DNA of 64,000 bases from Gigantopelta aegis. Taxonomy: Eukaryota; Mollusca; Gastropoda; Neomphalida; Peltospiridae. Below the pieces are notes generated by a model that did not search any database, was not told the origin of the DNA, and worked only from the letters and a program-made list of their open reading frames with translations. The translations under genes were made by a program, and so were the position numbers. Below are positions 16,890-43,596 of the stretch, in pieces. Location: assembly GCF_016097555.1 (NCBI RefSeq), contig NC_054701.1, positions 917,049 to 981,048 of the forward strand, in the 5' to 3' direction. Each line of letters starts with the position of its first letter. The stretch's first letter is position 1.

Positions 16890-17617
16890 AACTTCAATCA
16901 TTATTTTCTCTACTTGTGCTAGCATCATTTGTCAGACCCACACAGTGTTAAGTTAGTAAACCCTGCTTAAAAAAAGTTATTTTGTAACAAATCATTTCGA
17001 TCAACACAGTGTCACATCAAACTGAACTCCGCTACTCACTTAAAAACACTTGTGCTAACATCATTTGTCACACCCTTCATACAGTATATGACTTGACTAA
17101 CATACAACTGAATGTGTAACATCAAACAAACTTCATACTAACCCCTCTACAGTAAAGCATTACATACACAGACAGAACTTCAATCATTATTTTCTCTACT
17201 TGTGCTAGCATCATTTGTCAGACCCACACAGTGTTAAGTCAAAGTAAACCCTGCTATTCACTTACAAAAAGTGTTCTTTTCTCTACTTGTGCTAGCATCA
17301 TTTGTCAGACCCACACAGTGTTAAGTCAAAGTAAACCCTGCTATTCACTTACAAAAAGTGTTCTTTTCTCTACTTGTGCTAGCATCATTTGTCAGACCCA
17401 CACAGTGTTAAGTCAAAGTAAACTCCGCTATTCACTTACAAAAAGTGTTCTTTTCTCTACTTGTGCTAACATCATTTGTCACACCCACACAGTGTTACAT
17501 CAAACTGAACTCCGCTACTCACTTAAAAACCTTGTTCTTTTCTCTACTTGTGCTAATATCATTTGTCACACCCACACAGTGTTACATCAAACTGAACTTC
17601 GCTACTAACTTAAAAAC
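16890..17617. repeat. 87-bp array carrying copies of the exon-I 3' end and donor site
   Basis: The unit is 87 bp, with well-conserved copies at about 17190-17617 and degenerate ones back to about 16890. Read on the minus strand, each unit contains GAGAAAAGAACA followed by CTTTTTGTAAGTGAATAGC or AGGTTTTTAAGTGAGTAGC. This matches the end of exon I and its donor (GAGAAAAGAACAAG then GTTTTTAAGTTAG). The array therefore begins inside the exon. Confidence 0.85.
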
Positions 17618-17684
17618 CTTGTTCTTTTCTCTTCTGCCGCTCGTTTCCATTCAGGCTCCTTGGAAACAGTTTTGTCCACTTCAG
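17618..17684 (-). CDS. Exon I of the W-motif protein gene
   Basis: The acceptor is AATTACAG on the minus strand; the exon starts CTGAAGTGGAC. It is entered in phase 1 and left in phase 2 and encodes AEVDKTVSKEPEWKRAAEEK followed by RTR. EPEWKRAAEEKR is another copy of the P-x-W plus basic-helix motif seen in exons E, F, G and H, which supports the exon. The donor is uncertain: AAG|GTTTTT is weak, and the neighbouring TTTTTAA|GTTAGT (GTGAGT in array copies) would extend the exon by several bases and change the exit phase. Confidence 0.65.
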
Positions 17685-17769
17685 CTGTAATTATTCCAAG
17701 AAACGCATCACATATTTGTTATGTTCAGTCTTAACTTTTGACTGTTGACATTCTATCTGATAGTGATTT

Positions 17770-18915
17770 CTAATGACTGCCAACATATTAACTGATAGGA
17801 TTCTAATTACTGCCAACATATTAACTGATAGGATTCTAGTGACTGCCGACATATTAACTGATAGGATTCTAATGACTGCCAACATATTAACTGATAGGAT
17901 TCTAGTGACTGCCAACATATTAAGTGATAGGATTCTAATGACTGCCAACATATTAACTGATAGGATTCTAATGACTGCCAACATATTAACTGATAGGATT
18001 CTAGTGACTGCCGACATATTAACTGATAGGATTCTAGTGACTGCCGACATATTAACTGATAGGATTCTAGTGACTGCCAACATATTAACTGATACGATTC
18101 TAGTGACTGCCAACATATTAACTGATACGATTCTAGTGACTGCCGACATAATAACTGATAGGATTCTAGTGACTGCCGACATATTAACTGATTGGATTCT
18201 AATGACTGCCGACACATTAACTGATAGGATTCTAGTGACTGCTGACATATTAACTGATAGGATTCTAGTGCCGACATATTAACTGATAGGATTCTAGTGA
18301 CTGCCGACATATTAACTGATAGGATTCTAATGACTGCCAACATATTAACTGATAGGATTCTAGTGACTGCTGACATATTAACTGATAGGATTCTAGTGCC
18401 GACATATTAACTGATAGGATTCTAGTGACTGCCGACATATTAACTGATAGGATTCTAGTGCCGACATATTAAATGATAGGATTCTAGTGACTGCCGACAT
18501 ATTAAATGATAGTGATTTCTAGTGACTACCGACATATTAACTGATAGGATTCTAGTGACTGCCGACATACTAACTGATAGGATTCTAGTGACTGCCAACA
18601 TATTAACTGATAGGATTCTAGTGACTGCCGACATATTAAATGATAGTGATTGCTAGTGACTGCCAACATATTAACTGATAGAGATTGCTAGTGACTGTTG
18701 GCATATTAACAGATAGTGATTGCTAGTGACTGTTGACATAATAACTGACAGTGATTGCTAGACACTGTTGATATATTAACTGACAGTAATTGCTAGCTTG
18801 TGTTGACATATTAAATTACAGTTATTGCTAGTGATTGTCAATATATTAACTAATAACGATTGCTGGTCAGTACTGACATATTATTAACTTATAGTGATTG
18901 CTAGTAACTGCCAAC
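17770..18915. repeat. 33-bp tandem array, about 35 copies
   Basis: The unit is ACTGATAGGATTCTAGTGAC plus TGCCGACATATTA. Copies degrade towards the right (18640-18915: ATAGTGATTGCTAGTGACTG). Because 33 is a multiple of three, one long frame arises on each strand; I treat these as artefacts. It lies in the intron between exons H and I. Confidence 0.95.
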
Positions 18916-18917
18916 AT

Positions 18918-19345
18918 ATTTGAAGTGGAGAACAGTCGTCTAACACTTACTAATACCTTTTGAAGTGGACGGCAGTCGTCTAACACTTACTGATACCTTT
19001 TGAAGTGAATGGCAGTCGTCTAACACTTACTGATACCTTTTGAAGTGAATGGCAGTCGTCTAACACTTACTGATACATTTAGAAGTGGACAGCAGTCGTC
19101 TATCACTTACTGATACCTTTTGAAGTGGATGGAAGTCGTCTAACACTTACTGATACATAACACTTACTGATACATTTAGAAGTGGATGGCAGTCGTCTAA
19201 CACTTACTGATATATTTAGAAGTGGACAGCAGTCGTCTAACACTTACTGAAACACTTACTGATACCTTTATAAGTGGACGACAGTCGTCTAACACTTATT
19301 GATACATTTAGAAGTGGACAGCAGTCGTCTAACACTTACTGATAC
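18918..19345. repeat. 40-bp array carrying copies of the exon-H 3' end and donor site
   Basis: On the minus strand the unit is CGACTGCCGTCCACTTCAAA then AGGTATCAGTAAGTGTTAGA, about 10-11 copies. The first 22 bases are the last 22 bases of exon H and the rest is the 5' end of the intron, so each unit repeats the exon-intron junction. Some copies carry substitutions in the exon-like part while GTAAGTGTTAGA is kept almost unchanged. Confidence 0.9.
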
Positions 19346-19442
19346 CTTTTGAAGTGGACGGCAGTCGTTTCTTCTTGAGCTGCGATTTCCAGATAACTCC
19401 AGGACTCGTGTCTTCCGTGGACTCATCCTTGTTAGCATCAGT
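19346..19442 (-). CDS. Exon H of the W-motif protein gene
   Basis: The acceptor is TTACTGTTACAG on the minus strand and the exon is entered in phase 0. It encodes TDANKDESTEDTSPGVIWKS then QLKKKRLPSTSK, an acidic start followed by a VIW-KxQL-KKKR motif like the other W modules. Two donors are possible six bases apart, AAG|GTATCA and TCA|GTAAGT. Both keep the same phase, so the alternative exon ends at 19340 and adds two residues; GTAAGT is the better match to the donor consensus. Phase 1 exit matches exon I. Confidence 0.75.
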
Positions 19443-19479
19443 CTGTAACAGTAACAAGTACCCCGGTTGTAATGAGAAA

Positions 19480-20240
19480 CACACGAGTTTGATATCCCCG
19501 TGGTGGTGCTTCGGCTGTACACACGGGGTATGATATCCCCATGGTGGTGCCCCAGTTGTACACACGGAGTATGATATCCCAGCGGAGTATGATATCCCCG
19601 GGTTGGTGCCCCGAGTGTACACACGGAGTATGATATCCCCGGGATGGTGCCCCAACTGTACACACAGAGTATGATATTCCCGTGGTGGTGCCATCGCTGT
19701 ACACATGGAGTATGATATTCCTGTGGTGGTGCCATGGCTGTACACATGGAGTATGATATTCCCATGGTGGTTCCCCGGTTGTACACATGGAGTATGATAT
19801 TTCCGTGGTGGTGCCATGGCTGTACACATGGAGTATGATATTCCCGTGGTGTGCCATGGCTGTACACACAGAGTATGATATCCCCGTGGTGGTGCCCCGG
19901 TTGTCCACACGGAGTATGATATCCCCATGGTGGTGCCCCAGCTGTACACATGGAGTATGATATCCCCGTGATGGTGCCCCGGCTGTACACACGGAGTATG
20001 ATATCCCCGTGGTGGTGCCCTGGTTGTACACACGTAGTATGATATCCCCGTGGTGGTGCCCCAGCTGTACACATGGAGTATGATATCCCCGTGATGGTGC
20101 CCCGGCTGTACACACGGAGTATGATATCCCCGTGATGGTGCCCCGGCTGTACACACGTAGTATGATATCCCCGTGGTGGTGCCCCAGCTGTACACACGGA
20201 GTATGATATCCCCGGGGTGGTGCCCCGGGTGGAGTGTGAA
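19480..20240. repeat. 41-bp array filling the intron between exons G and H, about 19 copies
   Basis: On the minus strand the unit is GGGGCACCACCACGGGGATA then TCATACTCCGTGTGTACAGCT, about 41 bp. The array starts about 25 bases after the exon-G donor and stops about 45 bases before the exon-H acceptor. Units lack stop codons in all three minus frames, so reading through from exon G stays open for more than 300 codons. Unlike the neighbouring arrays it does not include the exon junction. Confidence 0.9.
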
Positions 20241-20254
20241 GACATCCTACTCAC

Positions 20255-20430
20255 CTGCACGTCGGACTCGCGTCGTATCTTCTTCCTGTTCACGAGCTCT
20301 CTCTTCCACTGGGGTATTTCCCCCCCAACCCCCGACTCACCAGACACCCGGGGAACATGGTGCAGGTTTGGGGTTGACACCGACTTCAGCTTGTTTCCTC
20401 GCATCCAGCTCGGGGCATAGTCATCTTTGA
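20255..20430 (-). CDS. Exon G of the W-motif protein gene
   Basis: The acceptor is GTTATTTCCAG and the donor GTGCAG|GTGAGTAGG. Entered in phase 1 and left in phase 0 (176 nt). It encodes a segment starting VKDDYAPSWMRGNKLKSVST, then PNLHHVPRVSGESG, and ending IPQWKRELVNRKKIRRESDV plus Q. It therefore has two W motifs, PSW-MRGNKLK and PQW-KRELVNRKK; the second resembles the basic WKREL segment seen in several actin-associated proteins (family resemblance only). Immediately upstream is a 17-bp array ending at the acceptor. Confidence 0.85.
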
Positions 20431-20439
20431 CTGGAAATA

Positions 20440-20705
20440 ACACGTCACATCAAATAACACATCACATCAAATAACATATCAAATAACATGTCACATCAAA
20501 TAACATGTCAAATAACACGTCACATCAAATATCACGTCACATCAAATAACATGTCACATCAAATAACACGTCACATCAAATAACACGTCACACATCAAAT
20601 ATCACGTCACACATCAAATAACACGTCACATCAAATATCACGTCACATCAAATATCAAATCGTATCAAATAACACGTCACATCAAATAACACATAGTATC
20701 ATGTC
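20440..20705. repeat. 17-bp array adjoining the exon-G acceptor
   Basis: The unit AACACGTCACATCAAAT, with 10-17 bp variants, is repeated about 15 times. On the minus strand the last copy runs straight into the acceptor (GATGTGACGTGTTATTTCCAG), so the array occupies the branch-point and pyrimidine-tract region. Confidence 0.85.
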
Positions 20706-20709
20706 ACAT

Positions 20710-23700
20710 CTCACATGTACTGTCGTTAACCTATCTATAAACAGTCTTCCTGATCTCACCTGCATGTCGTTAACCTATCTATAAACAGTCTTTCTGATGG
20801 CACCTGTACTTGTATGTCGTTAAACTATAAACAGTCTTTCTGATCTCACCTGTACTTGCATGTCGTTAAACTATAAACAGTCTTCCTGATCTCACCTGCA
20901 TGTCGTTAACCTATCTATAAACAGTCTTCCTGATCTCACTTGTATGTCGTTAACCTATCTATAAACAGTCTTTCTGATGGCACCTGTACTTGTATGTCGT
21001 TAAACTATAAACAGTCTTTCTGATCTCACCTGTACTTGTATCACGTTAACCTATCTATAAACAGTCTTTCTCATCTCACCTGTACTTGTATGTAGTTAAC
21101 CTATCTATGAACAGTCTTTCTGATCTCTCATGTACTTGTATGTAGTTAACCTATCTATGAACAGTCTTTCTCATCTCTCATGTACTTGTATGTAGTTAAC
21201 CTATCTATGAACAGTCTTTCTCATCTCACCTGTACTTGTATGACGTTAACCTATAAACAGTCTTTCTGATCTCACCTGTACTTGTATGTCGTTAAACTAT
21301 AAACAGTCTTTTTGATCTCACCTGTACTTGTATGATGTTAACCTATAAACAGTCTTTTTGATCTCACCTGTACTTGTATGTAGTTAACCTATCTATGAAC
21401 AGTCTTTCTGATCTCACCTGTACTTGTATGTCGTTAAACTATAAACAGTCTTTCTCATCTCACCTGTACTTGTATGTAGTTAACCTATAAACAGTCTTTC
21501 TGATCTCACCTGTACTTGTATGATGTTAACCTATAAACAGTCTTTCTGATCTCACCTGTACTTGTATGTAGTTAACCTATCTATGAACAGTCTTTCTGAT
21601 CTCATCTGTACTTGTATGATGTTAACCTATAAACAGTCTTTCTGATCTCACCTGTACTTGTATGTCGTTAAACTATGAACAGTCTTTCTGATCTAACCTG
21701 TACTTGTATGTAGTTAACCTATCTATGAACAGTCTTTCTGATCTCACCTGTACTTGTATGATGTTAACCTATAAACAGTCTTTTTGATCTCACCTGTACT
21801 TGTATGTAGTTAACCTATCTATGAACAGTCTTTCTCATCTCACCTGTACTTGTATGATGTTAACCTATAAACAGTCTTTCTGATCTCACCTGTACTTGTA
21901 TGATGTTAACCTATAAACAGTCTTTCTGATCTCACCTGTACTTGTATGATGTTAACCTATAAACAGTCTTTCTGATCTCACCTGTACTTGTATGTAGTTA
22001 ACCTATCTATAAACAGTCTTTCTGATCTCACCTGTACTTGTATGTAGTTAAACTTTAAACAGTCTTTCTGATCTCACCTGTACTTGTATGTCGTTAAACT
22101 ATAAACAGTCTTTCTGATCTCACCTGTACTTGTATGTAGTTAAACTATAAACAGTCTTTCTCATCTCACCTGTACTTGTATGTAGTTAACCTATCTATGA
22201 ACAGTCTTTCTCATCTCACCTGTACTTGTATGATGTTAACCTATAAACAGTCTTTCTGATCTCACCTGTACTTGTATGTCGTTAAACTATGAACAGTCTT
22301 TCTGATCTCACCTGTACTTGTATGTAGTTAACCTATCTATGAACAGTCTTTCTGATCTCACCTGTACTTGTATGATGTTAACCTATAAACAGTCTTTTTG
22401 ATCTCACCTGTACTTGTATGTAGTTAACCTATCTATGAACAGTCTTTCTCATCTCACCTGTACTTGTATGTCGTTAAACTATAAACAGTCTTTCTGATCT
22501 CACCTGTACTTGTATGATGTTAACCTATAAACAGTCTTTTTGATCTCACCTGTACTTGTATGTAGTTAACCTATCTATGAACAGTCTTTCTGATCTCACC
22601 TGTACTTGTATGTCGTTAAACTATAAACAGTCTTTCTCATCTCACCTGTACTTGTATGTAGTTAACCTATAAACAGTCTTTCTGATCTCACCTGTACTTG
22701 TATGATGTTAACCTATAAACAGTCTTTCTGATCTCACCTGTACTTGTATGTAGTTAACCTATCTATGAAGTCTTTCTGATCTCACCTGTACTTGTATTAT
22801 GTTAACCTATAAACAGTCTTTCTGATCTCATCTGTACTTGTATGATGTTAACCTATAAACAGTCTTTCTGATCTCACCTGTACTTGTATGTAGTTAACCT
22901 ATCTATGAACAGTCTTTCTCATCTCACCTGTACTTGTATGATGTTAACCTATAAACAGTCTTTCTGATCTCACCTGTACTTGTATGTCGTTAAACTATGA
23001 ACAGTCTTTCTGATCTCACCTGTACTTGTATGTAGTTAACCTATAAACAGTCTTTTTGATCTCACCTGTACTTGTATGTAGTTAACCTATCTATGAACAG
23101 TCTTTCTGATCTCACCTGTACTTGTATGATGTTAACCTATAAACAGTCTTTTTGATCTCACCTGTACTTGTATGTAGTTAAACTATCTATGAACAGTCTT
23201 TCTGATCTCACCTGTACTTGTATGTCGTTAAACTATAAACAGTCTTTCTCATCTCACCTGTACTTGTATGTAGTTAACCTATAAACAGTCTTTCTGATCT
23301 CACCTGTACTTGTATGTAGTTAACCTATCTATGAACAGTCTTTCTCATCTCACCTGTACTTGTATGATGTTAACCTATAAACAGTCTTTCTGATCTCACC
23401 TGTACTTGTATGTAGTTAACCTATAAACAGTCTTTCTCATCTCACCTGTACTTGTATGATGTTAACCTATAAACAGTCTTTCTGATCTCACCTGTACTTG
23501 TATGATGTTAACCTATAAACAGTCTTTCTGATCTCACCTGTACTTGTATGATGTTAACCTATAAACAGTCTTTCTGATCTCACCTGTACTTGTATGTAGT
23601 TAACCTATCTATAAACAGTCTTTCTGATCTCACCTGTACTTGTATGTAGTTAAACTTTAAACAGTCTTTCTGATCTCACCTGTCCTTGTATGTCGTTAAA

Positions 23701-25041
23701 CTATAAACAGTCTTTCTGATCTCACCTGTACTTGTATGTCGTTAAACTATAAACAGTCTTTCTGATCTCACCTGTACTTGTATGTAGTTAAACTATAAAC
23801 AGTCTTTCTCATCTCACCTGTACTTGTATGTAGTTAACCTATAAACAGTCTTTCTGATCTCACCTGTACTTGTATGATGTTAACCTATAAACAGTCTTTC
23901 TGATCTCACCTGTACTTGTATGTAGTTAACCTATCTATGAACAGTCTTTCTCATCTCACCTGTACTTGTATGATGTTGACCTATAAACAGTCTTTCTGAT
24001 CTCACCTGTACTTGTATGTCGTTAAACTATGAACAGTCTTTCTGATCTCACCTGTACTTGTATGTAGTTAACCTATCTATGAACAGTCTTTCTGATCTCA
24101 CCTGTACTTGTATGATGTTAACCTATAAACAGTCTTTTTGATCTCACCTGTACTTGTATGTAGTTAACCTATCTATGAACAGTCTTTCTCATCTCACCTG
24201 TACTTGTATGTCGTTAAACTATAAACAGTCTTTCTGATCTCACCTGTACTTGTATGATGTTAACCTATAAACAGTCTTTTTGATCTCACCTGTACTTGTA
24301 TGTAGTTAACCTATCTATGAACAGTCTTTTTGATCTCACCTGTACTTGTATGTAGTTAAACTTTAAACAGTCTTTCTGATCTCACCTGTACTTGTATGTC
24401 GTTAAACTATAAACAGTCTTTCTCATCTCACCTGTACTTGTATGTAGTTAACCTATAAACAGTCTTTCTGATCTCACCTGTACTTGTATGTCGTTAAACT
24501 ATGAACAGTCTTTCTGATCTAACCTGTACTTGTATGTAGTTAACCTATCTATGAACAGTCTTTCTGATCTCACCTGTACTTGTATGATGTTAACCTATAA
24601 ACAGTCTTTTTGATCTCACCTGTACTTGTATGTAGTTAACCTATCTATGAACAGTCTTTCTCATCTCACCTGTACTTGTATGATGTTAACCTATAAACAG
24701 TCTTTCTGATCTCACCTGTACTTGTATGATGTTAACCTATAAACAGTCTTTCTGATCTCACCTGTACTTGTATGATGTTAACCTATAAACAGTCTTTCTG
24801 ATCTCACCTGTACTTGTATGTAGTTAACCTATCTATAAACAATCTTTCTGATCTCACCTGTACTTGTATGTAGTTAAACTTTAAACAGTCTTTCTGATCT
24901 CACCTGTACTTGTATGTCGTTAAACTATAAACAGTCTTTCTGATCTCACCTGTACTTGTATGTAGTTAAACTATAAACAGTCTTTCTCATCTCACCTGTA
25001 CTTGTATGTCGTTAACCTATAAACAGTCTTTTTGATCTCAC
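20710..25041. repeat. 46-50-bp array of about 90 units, each with the exon-F donor site
   Basis: On the minus strand the unit is GTGAGATCAGAAAGACTGTT, then TATAGGTTAACATCATACAA, then GTACAG (46 bp); a longer form has TCATAGATAGGTTAAC. Nearly every unit contains ACAAGTACAG|GTGAGATC, exactly the last ten bases of exon F plus its donor. Higher-order structure is visible: the rare variant AACTTTAAACAG recurs near 22045, 23650, 24360 and 24875 in the same neighbour order. Confidence 0.95.
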
Positions 25042-25329
25042 CTGTACTTGTAGCGGAAGTACTGTCCTCTGTTTTCGTTGTTTTCAGGGGAGACAACCTG
25101 TCATGTGTGTTGTCCGGTGTGAGAGTTGTGTTGTCTGTACTGCTGTTCACCCTCTTGTTAGACGGCTGGGGGGTCTGGGGGGTCATCTCACCACTGTTGT
25201 TGTCTTGGTTTTCCGTCAGCGGCTTGGTTCTGGGGGTTTTCCGCAGCTGCCGCTCACCAAGCCACGGTGAGGGTTTCTTCTCTTCATCTTCATCTATCTT
25301 CCTGGCCTTGTTTTCCTGGTTACGATTTT
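25042..25329 (-). CDS. Exon F of the W-motif protein gene
   Basis: The acceptor is TTTTATTTTAG and the donor AGTACAG|GTGAGATC; 288 nt, phase 1 in and out. It encodes ENRNQENKARKIDEDEEKKP, SPWLGERQLRKTPRTKPLTE, a Gln/Pro/Thr-rich part (MTPQTPQPSNKRV), TDNTTLTPDNTHDRLSPLKT and an end TSATSTG. The SPW-LGERQLRK segment is one more W module. The Ser/Thr-rich tail is probably disordered. The start joins the end of exon E (EIVMAQ) smoothly in charge and style. Confidence 0.85.
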
Positions 25330-25331
25330 CT

Positions 25332-25935
25332 AAAATAAAACATAATAATAATAATGATAATAATGATAATAATGAAAATAATAATAATAATAATCTTTAT
25401 TATTTTCAGAGGTAAATATATTAACAAGTGACTGGTTTCCCATGAAGATGTTTCTGACAAACGAACAATTTGCACTATTTGATATTTTATAAGCTGTGTA
25501 TAGTGGTTGCTAAATTACAAACGAATAATTTGCATTATTTGATATTTTATAAGATGTGTAGTGGTTGCTAAATTACAAACAAACAATTTGCACTACAAGG
25601 TATTTGATATTTTATAAGCTGTGTAGTGGTTGCTAAATTACAAAAATTCCCATCATGTTTATGCATCCTCCTTTTCCATTATTACATTTAGAATCAACAT
25701 AGTGAACACTCCTATCATGTTAATGCATTGCCCATTATTATATTTAGAAGCAACATAGTGAACACTCCTATCATGTTAATGCATTGCCCATTATTACATT
25801 TAGAATCAACATAGTGAACACTCCTATCATGTTAATGCATTGCCCATTATTACATTTAGAATCAACATAGTGAACACTCCTATCATGTTAATGCATTGCC
25901 CATTATTACATTTAGAATCAATGCACTGAGAATCA
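25332..25935. repeat. AAT microsatellite, then about 70-bp and 56-bp tandem repeats
   Basis: AATAATAATGATAAT repeats occupy 25341-25395. About three copies of a unit with AATTTGCATTATTTGATATT and GTGGTTGCTAAATTACAAA follow at 25450-25645. About four copies of a 56-bp unit starting TCAACATAGTGAACACTCCT follow at 25695-25925. All are in the intron between exons E and F. Confidence 0.85.
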
Positions 25936-26799
25936 GTTTGAAATTCACAAGCAGGAACTTGGTACAAATGTCAGCAATGTTGGCGCGTATAAAATCACTG
26001 AAGGCGTGACAGAGATAGATTCCATATTTGGGGTTTGATCCTGTGCCATCTTGCACTTCAGACAATCACAGTAGGTAGAATACAGCCAGACAATCTAATT
26101 TCTCATATAACTTTCACATTACCTTTATTCTGATGCATCAACAGTTATAGAAAACAGACAGAGCTAGAAATGTAAGACATATTTGTCCAAGATTAATGTA
26201 TAACATCTCTTTGTTTGAAATGCATTTGTCTTATATGTTTTTATCCAACATTTTCTCCACATCCTCTTGTCTCACCTTGCCTCATTTCCAGCTACTGACA
26301 GCCATGTACAATGTATTGTTCTTACGTCTATATTATCTTGACAACCTGTACAATACCAGTACTATATATAGTTTAGGTGAGATCACCATAGGCAGGGCAA
26401 TAAAGTAAAACAAACTAATAATTAACGCAATGATACAATTAGAAACATAATCAATACAGTTAGTAAGACAACAGAAAAGCTGAGGCAAACAACAAATAAA
26501 ACTTAGAATAATGCAAAATGAAGAAGAAAAAAAATGACTGAATGAAATAATAAGAATGTAATAAAATGAAAACAAACCTTGAGCAATGACAAGCTCAGCT
26601 GTTTTTTGTTTCTTCTGTGCTACTTTGAATAAAGCAAGAATGAAACAAATATGTAAATGAAAATAATGCAGTGAGCAAACCAATTAGGAATAATGAAAAA
26701 TGCAAGAGTTAAATCATAGAATAAAGGAATTAATAGTTCAGTTAATAAAATTATAAGTAAAGCAATGAAAAAAGGCAAAGCCAAGAATAAACTGAAGAG
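25936..26799. other. Intronic sequence without recognised elements
   Basis: AT-rich; the open frames here are short, hydrophobic and lack splice context. I see no gene or RNA. Confidence 0.4.
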
Positions 26800-27450: not shown

Positions 27451-27599
27451 ATGAACAAAGGAATGTTAAAGTAATGAGTAATGCAATGTTGGTAACAAGG
27501 AAAAAACATTGAATAAAACAATCAGTTAACCAACAAATAAAGCCATGAGAAAACAATGAATAAATCAGTGAGTAAGGCAATGAGTAAATCCACAAGTAA

Positions 27600-28811
27600 A
27601 GAACGTTAACAAAGCAGAGACAACACAAACCTTGAGCCATGACGATACAAGTAAAGTAAAGAACGTTAACAAAGCAGAGACAACACAAACCTTGAGCCAT
27701 GACGATACAAGTAAAGTAAAGAACGTTAACAAAGCAGAGACAACACAAACCTTGAGCCATGACGATACAAGTAAAGGAAAGAACGTTAACAAAGCAGAGA
27801 CAACACAAACCTTGAGTCATGACGATACAAGTAAAGGAAAGAACGTTAACAAAGCAGAGACAACACAAACCTTGAGCCATGACGATACAAGTAAAGGTAA
27901 GAACGTTAACAAAGCAGAGACAACACAAACCTTGAGTCATGACGATACAAGTAAAGTAAAGCACGTTAACAAAGCAGAGACAACACAAATCTTGAGTCAT
28001 GACAATACAAGTAAAGTAAAGCACGTTAACAAAGCAGAGACAACACAAACCTTGAGTCATGACGATACAAGTAAAGGTAAGAACGTTAACAAAGCAGAGA
28101 CAACACAAACCTTGAGCCATGACGATACAAGTAAAGTAAAGAACGTTAACAAAGCAGAGACAACACAAACCTTGAGCCACGACGATACAAGGAAAGAATG
28201 TTAACAAAGCTGAGACAACACAAACCTTGAGCCATGACGATACAAGTAAAGTAAAGAACGTTAACAAAGCAGAGACAACACAAACCTTGAGCCATGACGA
28301 TACAAGGAAAGAACGTTAACAAAGCAGAGACAACACAAACCTTGAGCCATGACGATACAAGTAAAGTAAAGAACGTTAACAAAGCAGAGACAACACAAAC
28401 CTTGAGCCACGACGATACAAGTAAAGTAAAGAACGTTAACAAAGCAGAGACAACACAAACCTTGAGTCATGACGATACAAGTAAAGGTAAGAACGTTAAC
28501 AAAGCAGAGACAACACAAACCTTGAGCCATGACGATACAAGTAAAGAACGTTACAAAGCAGAGACAACACAAACCTTGAGTCATGACGATACAAGTAAAG
28601 TAAAGAACGTTAACAAAGCAGAGACAACACAAACCTTGAGCCATGACGATACAAGTAAAGAATGTTAACAAAGCAGAGACAACACAAACCTTGAGCCATG
28701 ACGATACAAGTAAAGTAAAGAACGTTAACAAAGCAGAGACCAACACAAACCTTGAGCCATGACGATACAAGTAAAGCAATGAATGTTAACAAAGCAGAGA
28801 CCAACACAAAC
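27600..28811. repeat. 60-bp array of about 20 units, each with the exon-E 3' end and donor
   Basis: On the minus strand the unit includes TATCGTCATGGCTCAAG followed by GTTTGTGTTGTCTCTGCTTT and GTTAACGTTC. Exon E ends GATCGTCATGGCTCAAG|GTTTGTG, so 16 exon bases plus the donor are in every copy. Units differ mainly in the presence of GTAAAGTAAA versus GTAAAGGTAA and a C/T in ATGGCTCAAG / ATGACTCAAG. The 20-codon repeat frames are artefacts. Confidence 0.95.
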
Positions 28812-29973
28812 CTTGAGCCATGACGATCTCGGCAGCCCTCTGTTTCTTTTCCTGGGCGGCTTTAAACCAGGCTGGCTTCTCGGGCTCCTGCTCCTGCAGC
28901 ATCTTACGGCTCAGGTCATCCGTACACTTGAGTTTCCGTGTCACCCACGCCGGCTGTCTGTCCACACCGTCACCCTTCACCTCACGCTGCTGGTGTTCTG
29001 TGAGAGACGCTTTCCACGCAGGCTTTACAACGTCAGCTTGTTGTGATGGTTTTACAATGTTAGCTTGTTGTGATGGTTTTACAACGTCAGCTTGTTGTGA
29101 TGGTTTTACAACGTCAGCTTGTTGTGATGGTTTTACAACGTCAGCTTGTTGTGATGGTTTTACAACCTCAGCTTTCTGTGAAGGTTTTACAACCTTGGAC
29201 TCTTGTGAAGGTTTTACAACCTCGGACTGTTGTGAAGGTTTTACAATCTCTGCTTTCTGTGAAGGTCTGACAAGCTCGGCTTGTTGTAGAGGTTTACAGG
29301 AGGACTCATCAAAGGAAACCTTACGTCCCGCAGTTTTAATCTGTTCTCCACTGACCTTGTGAGAAGATGTAGCATCACAGCGTGCTCCGTCAGAACTTGA
29401 TGAGCTGGTGCGAGGTTTGTGCCTCTGTTTGAAAGCAGTGGGAGAGAGAATGCCGTCAGTCAGTGCCTTGTCACTGGGACTCTGGTCTACTGCTGGTTTA
29501 TTGTGTGTTGATTCTTCAACCTGTTCAATTCTTGTCGCCAGTTCATTGAACTTGGTATCGAGCGATGCGTCAGAGGGAAGACATTTCCCCGCACTGAACT
29601 GATTCTGAGAATCTTTCTGGTCCTTTGAAACTCGTTTTGTCACAGTCCGGGGATGCACTTTTGGTTTTGTACCATTTGAGGAAGCGTTATTAGGTTTTGG
29701 TTTTTGTGAAGTGGAAACTGGTTTCAGTTTGGGAAAAATATTTTCGTTACCACTATGTTGGGATTCAAAAACAAGTTTAGGTTTGGAAGAACTCGAAGTA
29801 TCGTTGCTGGATTGTCTGACAACCGGTTTGAGTTTGGCCTTCATTTCGTTCTCACTTTGCGAGTTGTTATCATCGGCCTGGACAAGGTGGTTGTTTGTGT
29901 GATCAGTGAAACGACTCGTCTCTTTCTTCACACTGGAACCACCACCTGACTTCTTGGAGGATCCTGATAAAAC
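28812..29973 (-). CDS. Exon E (large) of the W-motif protein gene
   Basis: The acceptor is CTAATTGTAG and the donor GCTCAAG|GTTTGTG; 1162 nt, phase 0 in and 1 out, about 387 residues. It is Ser/Lys/Pro-rich and probably disordered, with an LKPV segment, a TVTKRVSKDQKDSQNQ stretch and a possible short helix TKFNELATRIEQVEEST. Then come ten 9-residue units of the form VKPSQQADV. The last unit grades into VKPAWKASL, followed by QPAWVTRKL and KPAWFKAAQEKKQRAAEIV: three W modules about 30 residues apart. There are no catalytic motifs. This is the most convincing coding block of the window because it is long, non-repetitive over most of its length and spliced in frame on both sides. Confidence 0.88.
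29028..29290 (-). repeat. 27-bp coding minisatellite inside exon E
   Basis: About ten in-frame copies of a 27-bp unit encode VKPSQQADV, VKPSQKAEV and VKPSQESKV. The central copies are nearly identical in DNA and the outer ones diverged. The C-terminal unit reads VKPAWKASL, so the repeat is in register with the first PAW motif. Confidence 0.9.
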
Positions 29974-34079: not shown

Positions 34080-34156
<77 letters not shown>

Positions 34157-34398
34157 ACTGTCTGTGTGTGTTTGTGTACATGTGTGTGTGCGTGTGTCTG
34201 TCTGTGTGTCTGTCTGTGTGTGGGTGTGAGTGTTAGTGTGTGTGTGTCTGTGTGTGTGTGTCTGTGTGCGTGTGTGTTTGTGTGCTAGTGTGTCTGTGTG
34301 TGTGTGTGTGTCTGTGTTTGTGTCTCTGTGTGTGTGTGTGTGTTTGTGTACGAGTGTCTGTGTGTGTTAGTGTGTGTGTGTCTGTGTCTGTGTGTGTG

Positions 34399-34445
<47 letters not shown>

Positions 34446-34470
34446 TGTTTCTGTCTATGTCTATCTGTGT
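33745..34470. repeat. TG/CA microsatellite, about 0.7 kb
   Basis: TGTGTG runs are interrupted by TCTG, GTGC and TATG. It begins about ten bases downstream (minus strand) of the exon-D donor. Open frames over it are Cys/Val or Thr/His artefacts. Confidence 0.95.
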
Positions 34471-34479
34471 ATAACAAAC

Positions 34480-34652
34480 CTTTGATGTGTTGATCTGGTT
34501 GAGACTGGGAACGAAGGCACCAGGTGGCGCTCTTGGCTTGTTTATCTGACTGAGACTGGGAACAGCACTTCTAGCCGGGGACTTCGTCTGAGGTTTCTTA
34601 AACATTTCATCATTTTCGTCATCTTGAACCCCATTGGAAACAGGTTTTGGTT
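34480..34652 (-). CDS. Exon D of the W-motif protein gene
   Basis: The acceptor is TTTACTTCTTAG and the donor ACATCAAAG|GTTTGTTAT; 173 nt, phase 1 in and 0 out. It encodes EPKPVSNGVQDDENDEMFKK, PQTKSPARSAVPSLSQINKP and RAPPGAFVPSLNQINTSK. The internal duplication VPSLSQIN / VPSLNQIN (about 17 residues apart) marks a short linear motif used twice. The exon connects exon C (ending DST) to exon E (starting VLSGSSKK) without a frame conflict. Confidence 0.85.
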
Positions 34653-34869
34653 CTAAGAAGTAAAGATAGAATCACTCTATTTGTGGTGGAAATGTAGTTT
34701 CTCGTTTAGAATACAGATCTATGTAAATGTGGTGTTTTCACTTGTCCTCAAAATGGTCTCTTCCCAGGGGAAGATCCTCGATTTTGTAAAGGGTGAATAA
34801 CAAAATTCTCAAAAGGGCAATTTGTGTTTGTTGAAGGCAAATGAACCGAGCTTCCAAAGGCAGCAAGGT
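34653..34869. other. Short intronic stretch before the 50-bp array
   Basis: Contains the exon-D acceptor at its left end; otherwise unremarkable. Confidence 0.5.
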
Positions 34870-36162
34870 CTGTATGGGTGTGGGAGTATGAGATTAATGA
34901 TGTAAATACCTGTAGAATCTACACAATGTGATTACAGGTGAGTTTAATGATGTAAATACCTGTAGAATCTACACAATGTGATTACAGGTGAGATTACTGA
35001 TGTAAATACCTGTAGAATCTACACAATGTGATTACAGGTGAGATTACTGATGTAAATACCTGTAGAATCTACACAATGTGATTACAGGTGAGTTTAATGA
35101 TGTAAATGCCTGTAGAATTTACACAATGTGATTACATGTGAGATTAATGATGTAAATACTTGTAGAATCTACACAATGTGATTATAGGTGAAATTAAACA
35201 ATGTAAATACCTGTAGAATCTACACAATGTGATTATAGGTGAGATTAATGATGTAAATACCCACAGAATCCCCATTGCAGGCAAGTTCAATGATGTAAAT
35301 ACCCGTAGAATCTACACAATGTGATTACAGGTGAGTTTAATGATGTAAATACCCGTAGAATCTACACAACATGATTACAGGTGAGATTACTGATGTAAAT
35401 ACCCGTAGAATCCACACAACATGATTACAGGTGAGATTACTGATGTAAATACCCGTAGAATCTACACAACATGATTACAGGTGAGAACAACATGATTACA
35501 GGTGAGATTACTGATGTAAATACCTGTAGAATCTACACAATGTGATTACAGGTGAGTTTAATGATGTAAATACCTGTAGAATCTACACGTGATTACAGGT
35601 GAGATTACTGATGTAAATACCTGTAGAATCTACACAATGTGATTATAGGCGAGTTTAATGATGTAAATACCTGTAGAATTTACACAACGTGATTACAGGT
35701 GAGATTAAACAAAGTAAATACCTGTAGAATCTACACAATGTGATTATAGGCGAGTTTAATGAAGTAAATACCTGTAGAATCTACACAATGTGATTACAGG
35801 TGAGATTAAACAATGTAAATACCTGTAGAATCTACAAAATGTGATTAAAGGCGAGATTAATGATGTAAATATCCGTAGAATCAACACAACGTGATTACAG
35901 GTGAGATTAAACGATGTAAATACCTGTAGAATCTACACAACGTGATTGCATGTGACTTCAATGATGTAAATACCCGTAGAATCTACACAACATGATTACA
36001 GGTGAGATTAATGATGTAAATACCCGTAGAATCTACACAATGTGATTACAGGTGAGATTAAACAATGTAAATACCTGTAGAATCTACACAACATGATTAC
36101 AGGTGAGATTACTGATGTAAATACCTGTAGAATCTACACAACATGATTACAGGTGAGATTAA
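34870..36162. repeat. 50-bp array (left part), units with the exon-C donor
   Basis: About 26 copies of the unit GATGTAAATACCTGTAGAAT then CTACACAACATGATTACAGG plus TGAGATTACT. On the minus strand each reads ..GTAGATTCTACAG|GTATTTACATC.., the end of exon C with its donor. The array is cut at 36162/36163 by the DIRS element and continues at 42685. Confidence 0.95.
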
Positions 36163-36320
36163 TTAGAAAATTTGTTCCTAATTTTCATTATTATTCATAC
36201 TTACCTAGTGCTAGCATAACAAATATGCTATTCAACCTGAGTCATACCTACACACTGCAGAATTCTCTCCCTTGCCGGATATGCGCAATGCTATCCTTGC
36301 ACGGGCTACCTGTAACTTCA
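36163..36320. repeat. Left inverted terminal repeat of the DIRS element
   Basis: The segment from TTAGAAAATTTG through ATATGCTATTCAACCTGAGT and TGCAGAATTCTCTCCCTTGC to TAACTTCATTCTCAGTTC is inverted at 42535-42684 with only scattered mismatches in the inner part. The outermost tips differ, as usual in DIRS elements. Confidence 0.85.
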
Positions 36321-36385
36321 TTCTCAGTTCAAAGTCCACCCAAACCCACCGAGGGAAAGCCTCATAGGGGTGGGTGGGAGGTATA

Positions 36386-36494
36386 GTTTGTTGTGCTAGC
36401 ACTAGGTAAGTATGAATAATAATGAAAATTAGAAACAAACTTTTTAATAGTCTTATTCAACTTACTGTGCTAGCACAACAAATATGCTATAACG
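36386..36494. repeat. Internal complementary region (circle junction) of the DIRS element
   Basis: The left half (TGTGCTAGCACTAGGTAAGT.. to CTTTTTAA) is the reverse complement of the left tip. The right half (TAGTCTTATTCAACTTACTG to ATATGCTAT) is the reverse complement of the right tip. They meet at 36447/36448. Confidence 0.9.
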
Positions 36495-36777
36495 GACATG
36501 CAATGACACTGTTAGAGCACATGAATTCAACATTAATGGGAGGAGGTAAGAAAATAGAAGACTTACCCGTACCCAAAAAGCTCCTTTGAAGTAATGACAT
36601 GGAGATAGGACGAACCACGACATACGGTAACAAGGAGTCAAAAAACTTTTGGGAATAAAAAGGGGCTTCCCAAAAGAAAAAATCATCCCCATGAAAGGGA
36701 GGAAAAACATCTCCCCAGGGAGAGGAAATGGTAGACAACACTACAAAAAAAATCATCCCTCAAAAAAGGGTGGAGTG

Positions 36778-37889
36778 TTAAACATGTCCGAAGCGTGAAT
36801 CGATGGCAGTCGGATGGAAAAGAGGTCGACCCCTTTCTGTTGCCCTGCGCACAGACACGACGTGTTGAGCCGCAATGACTGTCTGGATCCTACGCGTACC
36901 GTCAGGACCAACCGCCATATCCCGGAAATAGAAACGGTCAAAAGTGTGCCGTCTTTTCCAAACCCCTGCATTCATGACCTTTATAATATCTAAAGAGTCA
37001 TGAAAATTCAGGGAAGCAGAAATGGCTCGGATTTCATGTGGTTTAACAGAGAAATTCCGAAACACATGATCACCTGCCATCTCATATGCTAGCTTGATGG
37101 TAGCTGCTATCTATCGAGACAAAGCATTTTTTGTGACATCACCAGGCCTAATGGTATAAGAAATAAACAATCTCTTTTTACCCTGCTGCCAGTTGTTCGT
37201 GCGCTCCAAATAATACTTCAATGCTCTCACCGGGCAAAGAAGTCTATCCGAGTTGTCAGATGACAGTGTACGAGATAAACTGTGAATAACAGTAGGTGGA
37301 AACTCTTCCCCCGGACTGGTTTTTAGCAACAAAGATAGGGTCGGTACGTAAAGTGACAGACCCGTCCGAATAGTAATCAACTAAGTCATGCAAAAAAGCA
37401 TGTATCTCACTGATCCGACGACAAGCCGCCAGTGAAACCAGAAACAGAGTCTTCCACGTCAAGGCACGAAGACTAGCAAACCTCAACGGCTCATAAGGCG
37501 CACCCTTAAGAGCATGTAACACAAGAAAGACATTCCATTTCGGAATAATGGAAGGTCGTTCAAACGTGGATTGCAATGATTTAAGTAAATCATGCAACAC
37601 CAAGTTTGTAGAAAAGTCACGACATCCACACTGTTTAAGAGTAGTGAAAATCGCAGCTCTGTGACTTTTTACTGTCATGACTTTAAGTTTCCTTTCTTGG
37701 ACCAACGCCAGAAAGTACTCCGCTAAATCGTTGACAGTAGGCAATAAGGGATTGAAATCCCGTGTGTTCGCCCAACGAACCCACATACGCCAGTGACACT
37801 GATAAACCGACTCGGTAAATTTGCTGAAGAGACGAGATGCGCAATTCTTGTCGAAAAACCTCTGCGTCGCAAGAACCTCCACGTCGCAA
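36778..37889 (-). pseudogene. DIRS tyrosine recombinase region
   Basis: Catalytic residues of the tyrosine recombinase fold can be located in order. An arginine sits in LAACRRISEIHAF, a histidine-arginine pair in VKPHEIRAISASL, and a C-terminal tyrosine in HTFDRFYFRDM. The N-terminal SAM-like part reads CHWRMWVRWANTRDFNPLLP and ends AALFTT-like segments. The frame is interrupted near 37260-37380 (frame change) and by a stop near 37110, so the copy is broken. The family role is site-specific integration of the circular cDNA, replacing an integrase. Confidence 0.85.
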
Positions 37890-37899
37890 GAACCTCCAC

Positions 37900-40118
37900 G
37901 CGTGAAGCCGGAAAACCTCCGGCTTCGGATGTCACACCGTCTGACTCAGTCGCTGGCTGAGTAGATCGGACAACACTGGTAACCGGAACGGGACTGCCAC
38001 TAACAGTGACAGGAGCTGTGGAAACCAGGGCTGCGCCACCCACAGAGGAGCTATCAACGTCACGTGACAAGGTTCCTGGACCATTTTGGTCAACACCTTG
38101 CCGAGTAAGACAGGAGGAGGGAAGGCATAAAAATCCAGTCCCATCCAATCCATACTCAACGCGTCGTACTGGGGACACGAACACCGGCAATTGGTTGTTC
38201 AACCGTGTGGCAAACATGTCCACCTGTGGACTGCCCCAAACACGGAGAACCGCTGTGACCACCCCTTTGTTCAACATCCACTCCGTCTGAACAGGGGTAT
38301 GTCGACTGAGGGCATCGACCAACACATTCACCAAAGAAGGAATGTGTTTCGCCCACAGAGTCGTCCCTAGTTGGTCGCAGAATTCCAAAATCACAAGATC
38401 TTTGTGACCCAAAGTCTCCGATTTGGTTCCACACCAACGATTGAGATATGCCACTACCGACGTATTGTCGCATCTCAACAGAATTCGATGGCGTCGAAGA
38501 ACACACTTGAAATGAAGACAGGCACGATGCACTGCCTCCATCTCCAAACAGTTGATATGAAGCTTCCTCATGGAGAGATTCCATACCCCTGAAATGTGTT
38601 GATCCAACAGATGCGCCCCGTACCCGTGCAGCGACGCATCCGTGAAAAGGATCAGATCCGGAGCAGGGGGGTGCAACGGAACCGATAGGGACATGCACTT
38701 GTCCGACAGGCACTCCTGTATCGGATGAGTGAACCATGGGCCCAGAGGCACTATCATGTCCCAATTGTGACCATCCCACCGTGGGGACAAATGCCACTGG
38801 AGTGGTCATTTGAATCGTCTGAACCGCACAATCAATGAGGCCAGAGATTCGAGGTGGCCCAACACCACATGGATAGATCGTACCGTAGTACTTTGCTCCA
38901 TCAAACATCGCTCCGACGTTTGAAAATTGTGGATACGCGCATCAGTGGGACGAACCGATGCTACCACAAGATCGAAGACCACTCCGAGAAAAGTAAAGTT
39001 TGTTTTATTTAACGACGCCGCTAGAGCACATTGATTTTTTATCTTATCATCGGCTATTGGACGTCAAACATATGGTCATTCTGACACTGTTTTTAGAGGA
39101 AACCCGCTGTCGCCACATAGGCTACTCTTTTTACGACAGGCAGCAAGGGATCTTTTATTTGCGCTTCCCACAGGCAGGATAGCACAAACCATGGCCTTTG
39201 TTGAACCAGTTATGGATCACTGGTCGGTGCAAGTGGGTTACACCTACCCATTGAGCCTTGCGGAGCACTCACTCAGGGTTTGGAGTCGGTATCTCGATTA
39301 AAAATCCCATGCCTCGACTGGGATCCAAACCCAGTACCTACCAGCCTGTAGACCGATGGCCTGCCACGATGCCACCGAGGCCGGTGCCCACTCCGAGAAA
39401 TGTGAAAATCTGAGCCGTCTCCAAAAACAACCCGACATTGGTCCGACACTCCTGTTGCGACGAAGCTGGGACCAACCAATCGTCCAGATAGGTATGCATT
39501 CGAACCCCTAACGAATGAACATGACCTACCACCGCTTTTACCACACGTGTAAATGCATGGGGACTCGTCGCCAACCCGAAAGGGAGCACACGAAACTCGT
39601 ATGCCGTCCCGTCGAAAAGGAAGTGCAGAAACTTCCAAAACGCCTTGTGCACCAGGACATGGAGGTATGCGTCTTTCAGATCGATCCCCAATTTGAAGAA
39701 GGTTCCGGACCGAATGAACCGTTTCCATTTTCATGGAAGGAACGTCGACGTAGACGTTCAGTGGCTTCAAATTTAGGATTGGTCTTCATTCCCCATTTTC
39801 CTTCTGGGTGAAGAAAAGATGAGAATAAAATCCCGGAGTGTCCAGACTGATTCTCTGGATGGCCCCTTTATCAAGAAACTCGGCAATCATACTCTCCACT
39901 AAAACGCGCCGATCCGCGGACGGTAACGGCGGCATTCTTGGAGTGGAAATAAGAGGGGGGCTCGAAGAAAAGGGTATTTTGTAACCGCGTCGAACGACCG
40001 ACAGAACCCAGGGGTCGAGACCCGGCAGCTTGCACCAATTTCGAAGGAAATGGCAGAGCCTGCCCCCCACGGGTATAGTTGCTAACGGTACCTCCGAAAG
40101 CAACTGCTGATCGTTCAC
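37900..40118 (-). pseudogene. DIRS reverse transcriptase and RNase H region, SINE-interrupted
   Basis: The RT starts with GGRLCHFLRNWCKL and GAIQRISLDTPGFYSHLF, continues with GIDLKDAYLHVLVH and has the catalytic box YLDDWLV. RNase H follows with FTDASLHGYGAHL, the ELxA-equivalent segment EMEAVHRACLHF and RCDNTSVVAYLNR. A frameshift lies near 39800 (after QKENGE), and the SINE at 38992-39387 separates the RT palm from the rest. It makes cDNA in the intact family; this copy cannot as it stands. Confidence 0.85.
38992..39387 (-). mobile_element. Full-length tRNA-derived SINE inside the DIRS reverse transcriptase
   Basis: It is flanked by a clear 13-bp target duplication CCACTCCGAGAAA (38979-38991 and 39388-39400). 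The tRNA-like head is at the right end (minus orientation) and the ACGTTAAATAAA-type tail at the left. It is nearly identical to the copy at 12051-12452 (a few single-base differences), so it is young relative to the decayed host element. Confidence 0.92.
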
Positions 40119-42416
40119 GTACCCTCACCCCAACCGCTTACCACCCATAGGCACAACGCCTTTGGTGGACTGAGAACAGAACGCAGTTCGATGTTTGCGT
40201 CCTCGCTTAGGGGAAGACGGGTTGTTACCTGGTTGCCTCCTAGTGTCAGGAACCCTAGGGATCTGAGCCGACCATAAAAAAGCAGCCTTTTTACAGGAGG
40301 CTTGAACCCCGAAAACATGGACCGGCGTTTACCAGAGATTGAGGGTTGAGTGTTCGGGACTGGTCGCAACAAATCTTTGTCTAGGACAATATTAAAATCG
40401 GGACCGAAAAGTAAATTTTCCCGTACCGAACGTGTACGAAAAAACGTCTTTGCAACGTTTGACACACTCAAACCCGCCAGGTAATGGTCATGCCGTAACA
40501 AAAGACTGTTCGTAAACAATCGGCCAGATAACTGAGCGATATGCTTAGAGGCTTTTGACGCAGCCTCCAAACAGCCTTTCGCCATTGCGGGAAGGCTCTC
40601 GACAGCCTTATCCAAGCCAAATAGGAAAGTACCTAAATGGTTATTAACCTGGAACATCGACTTAGTCAGCCATTCGAACGATTCCAGATCCGTGATTGGC
40701 AATGACACATGCGGCGATGGGGAACAAGAGGCTCGCACACTAGCGGGAACGACCGCCGGATGTTCAAGAAAATCCGCCCCCAACGTCTCATAGGAGTCAG
40801 CACGAAAAATGCGCGCTCCTGTTAAGATTTTCCCCGTAGGCAGTGCCTTTGGGTACTCATCAACACCCACTCCCAGGATACGATCACTGCCAGTGATCAA
40901 CGCATCAATGTCACAAAGTGAACTGTGCGCCTCCTGTGCAAGTGGTAAACCCGACTCCTCACGAGGAGTGACCAAATTCAAGGAACGGTTTCCGAAGGAG
41001 ACACCCTTGAATGTAGGCTGGGCCTCAACCTGAGGTATAGCGTCCCCGCATACCTGTCGGACCTGGTCCCTGACAAAAGCCAGAACCGCCGGATAATCGC
41101 ACTCCTCCTCTACCTCCGAACCGAAGTGAGAGAGAGCTGGGTCAGCGACAGAATCCGGTCCAACCTACGCTTCCTCTAAAGCCAGGTCACTGTCCATTGG
41201 ATCCTGAAGATCTACATGGACTCCTCCCCCTAAACGAGATGCCCCTGGGGCAGCGTCTCCCGAGACGGAAACAATGGAACTGAATGACAATCCCTAACTG
41301 CATCATCAAACTGCTGCCGAGACGCAGTTTCTGCTGGTTTTGGCGGAAAACGGGGGGGGGGGGGGGAATGGGAACCGCACCCGACGGTCCCGTCTGCGAA
41401 ATCAATGATCCCAACTGAGGCGAAGCGTTCAAAAATTCCACAAAACTCCGAAACAACGTTTCCTGAAAGCCTAACGGTTGTTCCTGCGCCAAGTGCGGAA
41501 CGGTCGGAGTTTGCAGCCAAGGGGTACCTGCGCGAACCTCGTCCTCTATCGAGTAAAGTCGAAGAGGTAGGGACCAAAGACGGTGCAAACTGTGAGGAGA
41601 TGTCTGTTGCTACCGAAGTCACCGGACCGTTGGGGTAAACATATGCAAACGGAGGACCCAAACGGGATGAGTCCTCCACCCAACGGTAATCATCGGTCGG
41701 GATGCCATTAGAAACGGATCCCGGCATCAGATCAACTGGCTCAGTTCGAAGCAAACTGGCAGAACTCTCCTCGGGCCTTGAGAATGCTGAGAATGCTGAG
41801 GTGCCGAAGCTACTGTCAGCAATCGAAGGCAAAGTCGGGGCCACCTGCTCTGCGGACGAAGCAGTGGACCTATGCACAACGGAGTACAAATGCTCAGTAG
41901 CCGATGAAGTCGTCAAAACCGGTGCTGCGACGACTCCACCCTGCCCTCCTTCTTTTTGTAAAGGTAACCGTAACGACGTGGCGACGCCAGAGACGAAGCC
42001 ACACAAACAGAAGACGGCGCCGTCACCAACGAAGACGGCTCACTTACCACGGTCACAATAGGAGCCCACGGGGGCGCTCCCGAAGTATCGGTAACTGTAC
42101 TCGTAACATGGACCGACAAAGAAACACACTTGTGTTTCCCCCCTTTCCGGACACTTTTCGAAGTGTCCACAGACTTATGGGACCTACCCACTAAGTCCGA
42201 CTTGCCTACTACTGCCGAAGCAGCCGACAAGATTTTGCTGGTACCCGAAACCTGAGTCTGCGAACCGAACCCACTGGTCAGGGGACCACGTGGCGCAGAA
42301 CAAGACCGACAGTCCGGACACAACACGTGTGTGTCTTTATGTCGTAAAGGAAACTGACAACCATCTTGCGCATAAACTTTCCGTGCGCTAGCTGTCAACG
42401 AACTCGCGTCGGACAT
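40115..42416 (-). pseudogene. DIRS gag-like region
   Basis: It starts MSDASSLTASARKVYAQDGC at 42416 and has a Cys-rich CPDCRSCSAPRG segment, then long Ser/Pro/Thr-rich sequence, and a C-terminal part (40981-40115) with LYGRLRSLGFLTLGGNQ-like residues before the RT. At least two frame changes separate the three open blocks, one of them near the 15-G run at about 41353. The position before the RT is that of the gag-like ORF of DIRS elements; function is inferred from position. Confidence 0.6.
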
Positions 42417-42534
42417 GGTAAATTCAACACAGAATTCCCAACTACCAACTGTATGTCAAGTTCAACCGAAAAACAAACACAAAATTACAAGTAAAGAAAA
42501 CTTTTTGCCAAAGCTTAAACAGGTGTTAACAGAT

Positions 42535-42684
42535 GGACTGCAGAATTGAGAATGAAGTTACAGGTAGCCTGTGCAAGGATAGCATTGCGCATATCTGGTA
42601 AGGGAGAGAATTCTGCAGTGTGTAGGTATGACTCAGGTTGAATAGCATATTTGTTGTGCTAGCACAGTGAGTTGAATAAGACTA
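42535..42684. repeat. Right inverted terminal repeat of the DIRS element
   Basis: Inverted copy of 36163-36320, ending TTGTTGTGCTAGCACAGTGA then GTTGAATAAGACTA, with the 50-bp array resuming immediately. Confidence 0.85.
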
Positions 42685-43474
42685 TGATGTAAATACCTGT
42701 ATAATCTACACAACATGATTACAGGTGAGATTACTGATGTAAATACCTGTAGAATCTACACAACATGATTACAGGTTAGTTTAAACAATGTAAATACCCG
42801 TAGAATCTACACAATGTGATTACAGGTGAGATTAAACAATGTAATACCTGTAGAATCTACACAACATGATTACAGGTGAGAGTAATGATGTAAATACCTG
42901 TAGAATATACACAACATGATTACAGGTGAGAATAATGATGTAAATACCTGTAGAATCTACACAATGTGATTACAGGTGAGATTAAACAATGTAAATACCT
43001 GTAGAATCTACACAACGTGATTACTGGTGAGATTACTGATCTAAATACCTGTAGAATCTACACAACGTGATTACTGGTGTGATTACTGATGTAAATACCT
43101 GTAGAATCTACACAACGTGATTACAGGTGAGATTACTGATCTAAATACCTGTAGAATCTACAAAACGTGATTACTGGTGAGATTACTGATGTAAATACCT
43201 GTAGAATCTACACAATGTGATTACAGGTGAGATTACTGATGTAAATACCTGTAGAATCTACACAACGTGATTACAGGTGAGTTTAATTATGTAAATACCT
43301 GTAGAATCTACACAACATGATTACAGGTGAGATTACTGATGTAAATACCTGTAGAATCTACACAACGTGATTACAGGTGAGATTACTGATGTAAATACCT
43401 GTAGAATCTACACAGCGTGATTACAGGTGAGATTACTGATGTAAATACCTGTAGAATCTACAAAACGTGATTCT
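42685..43474. repeat. 50-bp array (right part), running into exon C
   Basis: About 16 more copies of the unit at 34870-36162. The last copy merges into exon C: minus strand CACGTTTTGTAGATTCTACAG|GTATTTACATC at 43469-43438. Twenty or more exon bases are included in the repeat unit. Confidence 0.95.
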
Positions 43475-43596
43475 TCTGACTCGGAAACACAGCGCTTCAT
43501 ACTTGATCTGGTCGGCTTCTTTCTCAGAGCGAGGGAACCTTTCTTCCGTAACGACGTCTTCTGCTTGACGGCGTCAACGTCTAGCCGATCAGTGTC
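43449..43596 (-). CDS. Exon C of the W-motif protein gene
   Basis: The acceptor is GTTGTTGCACCAG and the donor TCTACAG|GTATTTAC; 148 nt, phase 0 in and 1 out. It encodes DTDRLDVDAVKQKTSLRKKG, SLALRKKPTRSSMKRCVSES and EESRFVDST. A very basic centre (RKKG, LRKKPTR) with serines is followed by an acidic cluster, typical of a phosphorylatable, disordered linker. The 3' end of the exon is the seed of the 50-bp array. Confidence 0.82.

Follow-up and report, generated by a model that had tools for sequence, protein, structure and literature searches.

The window analysed here, a stretch of 64 000 nucleotides in the genome of the deep-sea vent gastropod Gigantopelta aegis (contig C3, NC_054701.1, positions 917049–981048 in forward-strand coordinates; assembly of 1.15 Gb), begins 0.9 Mb into a contig of 97 Mb. 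It carries the gene LOC121367343, read from the minus strand as a ten-exon open frame with consistent phases (exons E1–E10), together with a short additional exon, E5b. Five of the ten introns open with a tandem repeat that starts inside the exon and whose unit comprises the exon tail and the donor, as detected with Tandem Repeats Finder (TRF).

The gene was identified from a first conceptual protein of 888 residues, of which residues 560–888 show 95 per cent identity over 99 per cent to isoform X2 of LOC121367343, an uncharacterized protein. The translation of E3–E10 with E5b is exactly residues 9–736 (728 residues) of the deposited predicted protein P0001, from which E5b itself and a correction of the E9 donor were taken. 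The exons matched by P0001 are E3 (43449–43596, an exact match), E4 (34480–34652), E5 (28812–29973), E5b (26578–26619, 42 nt), E6 (25042–25329), E7 (20255–20430), E8 (19346–19442), E9 (17610–17684) and E10 (15977–16002), in which the coding sequence ends. Exons E1 (54746–54991, with consistent phases) and E2 (53724–54017) lie outside P0001 and are defined by the open frame only; the acceptor of E2 is our choice. A Pfam scan of the first 888-residue model found no domain, a search of its C-terminal 287 residues against solved structures gave no match and an Rfam search of the window gave zero matches.

The five arrays, all given on the minus strand, differ in unit and size. The array at E3 (42685–43472) has a 50-bp unit and 16 donor copies; it begins 24 bases inside the exon, 23 of which match. 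Its remainder (34889–36163), with 25 further copies found by TRF and a unit scan, lies beyond a retroelement. The array at E5 (27594–28827) begins 16 bases inside the exon and has 21 donor copies of a 60-bp unit. The largest, at E6 (20735–25052), begins 11 bases inside the exon with main spacings of 46 and 50 bp, contains 89 to 92 copies, according to the scan used, and makes up almost the whole of intron 6. The array at E8 (18919–19368) has 10 copies of a 40-bp unit and begins 23 bases inside the exon (22 matching). At E9 (17190–17632), there are five copies of an 87-bp unit, beginning about 23 bases inside the exon in a degenerate form; three copies are retained in a stricter donor scan, and degenerate copies can be followed by eye to about 16890. 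An earlier note on this DNA had described arrays of 50, 60, 46–50, 40 and 87 bp with 10–25 exon bases per unit in five introns of the gene, after exons that it named C, E, F, H and I (here E3, E5, E6, E8 and E9). The TRF results and the exact P0001 exons bear out this description, with 11–24 exon bases per unit. The note had missed exon E5b and the fact that the 50-bp array resumes on the far side of the retroelement.

The five units were compared in ten pairs and two orientations, with 300 shuffles for each comparison, and are mostly unrelated. There are four comparisons among the 20 (E3/E6 antisense, E3/E8 sense, E5/E9 sense and E5/E9 antisense) for which no more than four of the 300 shuffles were as good. 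A common origin of the five arrays was rejected on this basis, most pairs being without similarity in either orientation. Homology between introns of the introner type was not found among the five units, apart from the few short matches with low shuffle counts. The claim that the arrays are unrelated in sequence stands for most pairs. Repeated independent origin at donors, also claimed earlier, is supported by the mostly unrelated units, the non-random placement and the two myosin donors described below. Inspection of the unit joins, by eye only, revealed neither a common motif nor long microhomology. The antisense strand of the E3 unit (42685–43472) carries a donor-like sequence, ACAGGTGAGAT, which resembles the donor of E6 (array 20735–25052).

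The position of the arrays within the gene is not random. When the arrays of each intron were slid randomly across the intron and 30 exon bases (20 000 trials), five or more donors were overlapped from within the exon in 21 placements (P about 0.001). Two further arrays start just downstream of a donor, a 74-bp array 19 bp from E2 and a 41-bp array 26 bp from E7. The number of donors with an array edge no more than 30 bp away is therefore seven, a value reached or exceeded in 12 of the 20 000 placements. No intron acceptor is overlapped (0/10, against 5/10 donors; Fisher P = 0.033). Arrays do abut acceptors: one with periods of 25–106 (54995–58574) ends 3 bp from the E1 acceptor, a separate array lies 4 bp from that of E7 and a 97-bp array (16008–16593, minus strand) lies 5 bp from that of E10, each remaining outside the exon. 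The statement in the earlier note that the arrays are always on the donor side consequently holds for those that overlap exons, but not for arrays near junctions in general.

In the deposited predicted protein, the exon-proximal donor is used at all five arrays. Reading on to the next donor copy would meet an in-frame stop at E3, E5, E8 and E9, and at E6, where that copy is 46 bases downstream, the frame would shift. The dinucleotide GT is kept in 133 of the 139 copies of the strict scan, true donors included (16/16 at E3, 20/21 at E5, 85/89 at E6, 9/10 at E8 and 3/3 at E9). The copies were also scored as splice sites, as the earlier note had suggested, using a donor weight matrix. Most of them score at least as high as the true donor, itself counted (14/16, 20/21, 81/89, 5/10 and 3/3 for E3, E5, E6, E8 and E9), and at E9 the array copies outscore the true donor under this matrix. 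Because so many copies score as well as the true donor, donor strength alone cannot account for the choice. Donors that are transcribed first are favoured, and position probably decides here as well, the proximal copy being the first transcribed and giving an exon of normal length.

The retention of GT in most copies, and the stop or frameshift that would follow the use of a downstream donor, could be taken as signs of a selected feature, the copies decoying U1 or providing regulated, poison-type alternative donors. Young arrays are, however, expected to keep GT anyway. Column conservation was examined in five sets of exact-period units (E3 near, E3 far, E5, E6 and E8). The donor 9-mer of E6 ranks fourth of 46 windows for low divergence, which speaks for constraint, but the ranks in the other four sets (12/50, 22/50, 34/60 and 22/40) show no consistent pattern. 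Selection on the donor copies was rejected, the five sets having no consistent extra conservation at the donor bases. The proposal of U1 decoys or alternative donors in the earlier note is not upheld by these results or by the use of the proximal donor in the predicted protein, and we regard such a role as very improbable.

Exon E5b is situated downstream of the 60-bp array, and its splicing is taken from the deposited predicted protein only. Together with its donor, it can be aligned with the end of E5 at 47 identical bases out of 61, with one 3-nt gap, and the DNA alignment extends upstream of the E5b acceptor. Only eight of 2991 random segments of the window reach this score, and all eight are the E5 end itself. 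At the protein level, eight of 13 residues are identical, and none of 5000 shuffles scores as high. On the simplest reading of this alignment, E5b appears to be an older donor-side copy that gained an acceptor by mutation and became coding; the polarity would be that E5b is the copy and the E5 end the source. The interior of E5 (29024–29295) contains a 27-bp coding tandem repeat that encodes the repeated peptide KPSQQADVV, and a longer similar repeat is present in the related protein P0002.

Junctions elsewhere in the genome were studied using exons of the myosin head family, for which a genome search gave at least 80 matches. We read 25 donor sides and 15 acceptor sides. On large contigs, small ones being excluded, the top 20 matches supplied the first 20 donors; the last five were picked by hand, and the acceptors come from 15 of the first 20 exons. 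Several exons share genes. Exon ends were those of the hidden Markov model matches, and donors were recognized by eye in most cases and not each confirmed. Two of the 25 donors have an exon-overlapping array. At C8:71020354, an 80-bp unit including 23 exon bases is repeated through the end of the stretch read; at C1:27055734, the array is more degenerate, with some copies extending about 45 bases back into the exon. At another donor, a 21-bp array sets in at about intron base 10, and one is soon followed by a CT-rich microsatellite. None of the 15 acceptors has an array entering the exon, although one 43-bp array stops 5 bp short.

Two other myosin exons (L041 and L042) end in the same motif as the exon at C8:71020354 and have no array in the approximately 300 bp read. 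Because these two paralogous exons end alike without an array, the C8 junction is older than its array. A similar comparison is provided by P0002, in which the end of E5 is conserved and the frame continues beyond it into a different short tail. Both comparisons bear on whether the arrays could be remains of intron birth, the introns having been made by tandem duplication of an exonic AGGT. Such a mechanism is treated in the available text of a review (PMC3443670), and E5b suggests that the recruitment of duplicated exon tails is possible. The myosin paralogues nevertheless carry the junction motif without the array, and the change of tail in P0002 is as expected if an intron starts at that point there too; intron birth is accordingly very improbable as a source of these arrays. 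The same comparisons argue against exon sliding, in which the exons would once have ended further upstream and a repeat copy of an existing intronic array would have taken over as donor. A second potential donor does exist in E3, 54 bases upstream of the one used, a feature that sliding could explain. The C8 tail is, however, common to paralogues and the E5 tail to P0002, which indicates old coding sequence, and exon sliding seems very improbable to us.

The region as a whole is rich in repeats. Minisatellites occupy 7, 30, 40, 48, 66 and 76 per cent of six flanking 10-kb stretches (L009–L014), compared with a mean of 8.4 per cent and a median of 5.7 per cent in 20 spread 10-kb loci (8.8 per cent when pooled without N; locus L018 contains 7051 N and locus L028 contains 837 N). 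The retroelement within the 50-bp array at E3 (36164–42684, minus strand, with ends set from the array edges) encodes a reverse transcriptase, has a weak RNase H match and is bounded by 123-nt inverted terminal repeats of 96 per cent identity. On these features, we read it as DIRS-like; an open frame at the place expected for the recombinase matched no Pfam family. Because the element sits inside the array, the array was once contiguous and is older than the insertion. A second retroelement, in our reading Gypsy-like, is found at 58700–63242, near the array at 54995–58574; its domains are those of reverse transcriptase, RNase H and integrase. An assembly gap of 200 N (53202–53401) separates 74-bp arrays at 49799–53196 and 53402–53704, whose assembled length may thus differ from the true one.

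Taking these observations together, we consider it probable, at about 0.62, that the arrays are minisatellites of the type called mirages, produced by neutral duplications across junctions and tolerated at donors. A short tandem duplication would cross an existing exon–intron junction, so that the copied segment includes the end of the exon, its donor and some tens of bases from the intron; slippage or unequal exchange would then expand the array within the intron. Duplications on the donor side would survive, as they leave the authentic donor ahead of its copies, where it is transcribed first and gives an exon of normal length; those on the acceptor side would not, as the extra copies would precede the authentic acceptor. 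An old copy downstream of E5 appears later to have acquired an acceptor by mutation to yield E5b. The richness of the surrounding stretch in minisatellites, 0.9 Mb from the contig end, is our proposed reason why as many as five of the ten donors have been struck.

Several results weigh against this explanation. The gene was chosen for its arrays, and the P values obtained for it apply to it alone. The 20 spread loci (192 kb without N) contain 80 arrays with a period of at least 10 and 56 with a period of at least 20; from this density, an array edge is expected to fall within a given 30 bp of exon end at about 1 per cent of donors. The two struck donors among the 25 from myosin exons are then a modest excess over random edges (P = 0.02–0.04 for 30 exon bases), and with a rate of 2.3 per cent per donor the P value is 0.11. 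Nor do the myosin exons, some of them from the same genes, show an asymmetry between donors and acceptors (2/25 versus 0/15, P = 0.52). Finally, genome-wide counts of three copies of a motif 30–60 apart, set against the reversed motif, gave 2956 versus 1442 matches for AGGTGAGT, 2077 versus 3301 for AGGTAAGT and 1119 versus 2190 for the control AGTGGAGT, many of the matches coming from single large arrays; in these counts, tandem triplets of donor motifs show no consistent excess over those of control motifs.

Another explanation is that the duplications are seeded at junctions, with R-loops, breaks or nucleosome edges at transcribed junctions favouring starts at donors. Half of the donors of this gene are struck, far more than the approximately 1–2 per cent per donor expected from the density of array edges in the spread loci, and the two struck myosin donors point in the same direction. 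A splicing filter acting in a repeat-rich region would nevertheless yield a bias of the same direction, the joins offer no shared motif or extended microhomology to the eye and a single heavily struck gene is known; seeding at junctions therefore seems rather unlikely to us. It is a more tentative proposal than that of mirage-type minisatellites in this gene, and on balance a doubtful one, that the genome of this snail undergoes continuing donor-side duplication throughout, with copies occasionally becoming coding exons such as E5b. If true, new exons and introns would still be arising in a mollusc by this route.

A search of the main text of the paper on the G. aegis genome gave no occurrence of ‘tandem repeat’. 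The mirage reports found among open-licence papers in PubMed Central (PMC) concern amphioxus, with none for a mollusc. Repeats of the ordinary intronic kind are comparable in intron 3 of an abalone TSSK1-like gene (PMC6905558) and in the introns of earthworm metallothionein, where duplications of exon 4 are absent from the transcript (PMC12783039); a unit made of exon tail and donor is not described in the available text of either paper. The duplication-based gain of introns at AGGT, in the available text of PMC3443670, likewise involves a tandem duplication across an AG/GT site. It differs from the present case, in which at least one junction (the C8 myosin) predates its array and there are many copies, not one duplication.

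The closest likeness is to the mirages of amphioxus, minisatellite-like duplications of exon–intron boundaries that the available texts describe in Adh3, globins, troponin C and PGBD5 (PMC3087553 and PMC3902484). The suggestion of the earlier note that the present arrays are unlike known isolated cases was thus only partly right, the same structure occurring in several amphioxus genes. In both animals, the tandem repeat spans the boundary, here at five of the ten introns and at two myosin donors, and its units carry splice signals (GT in 133/139 copies in the snail). According to the amphioxus model, proposed for globins in the available text of PMC3087553, a copy that gains an acceptor by mutation is turned into a new exon, whereby introns are created. 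The snail case differs in its mollusc host, in the presence of five arrays in one gene, in copy numbers of up to about 90 and in a candidate coding exon derived from a copy; its exon-overlapping arrays are on the donor side only, whereas acceptor-side cases are also described in amphioxus. The origin of introns and exons is an old open question, and few recent cases have been caught in the act. Five independent arrays copying junctions, with an apparently exonized copy, make the amphioxus mirage model testable far from amphioxus, and they provide a natural case for testing how a single donor is chosen by the spliceosome from as many as ninety almost identical copies.
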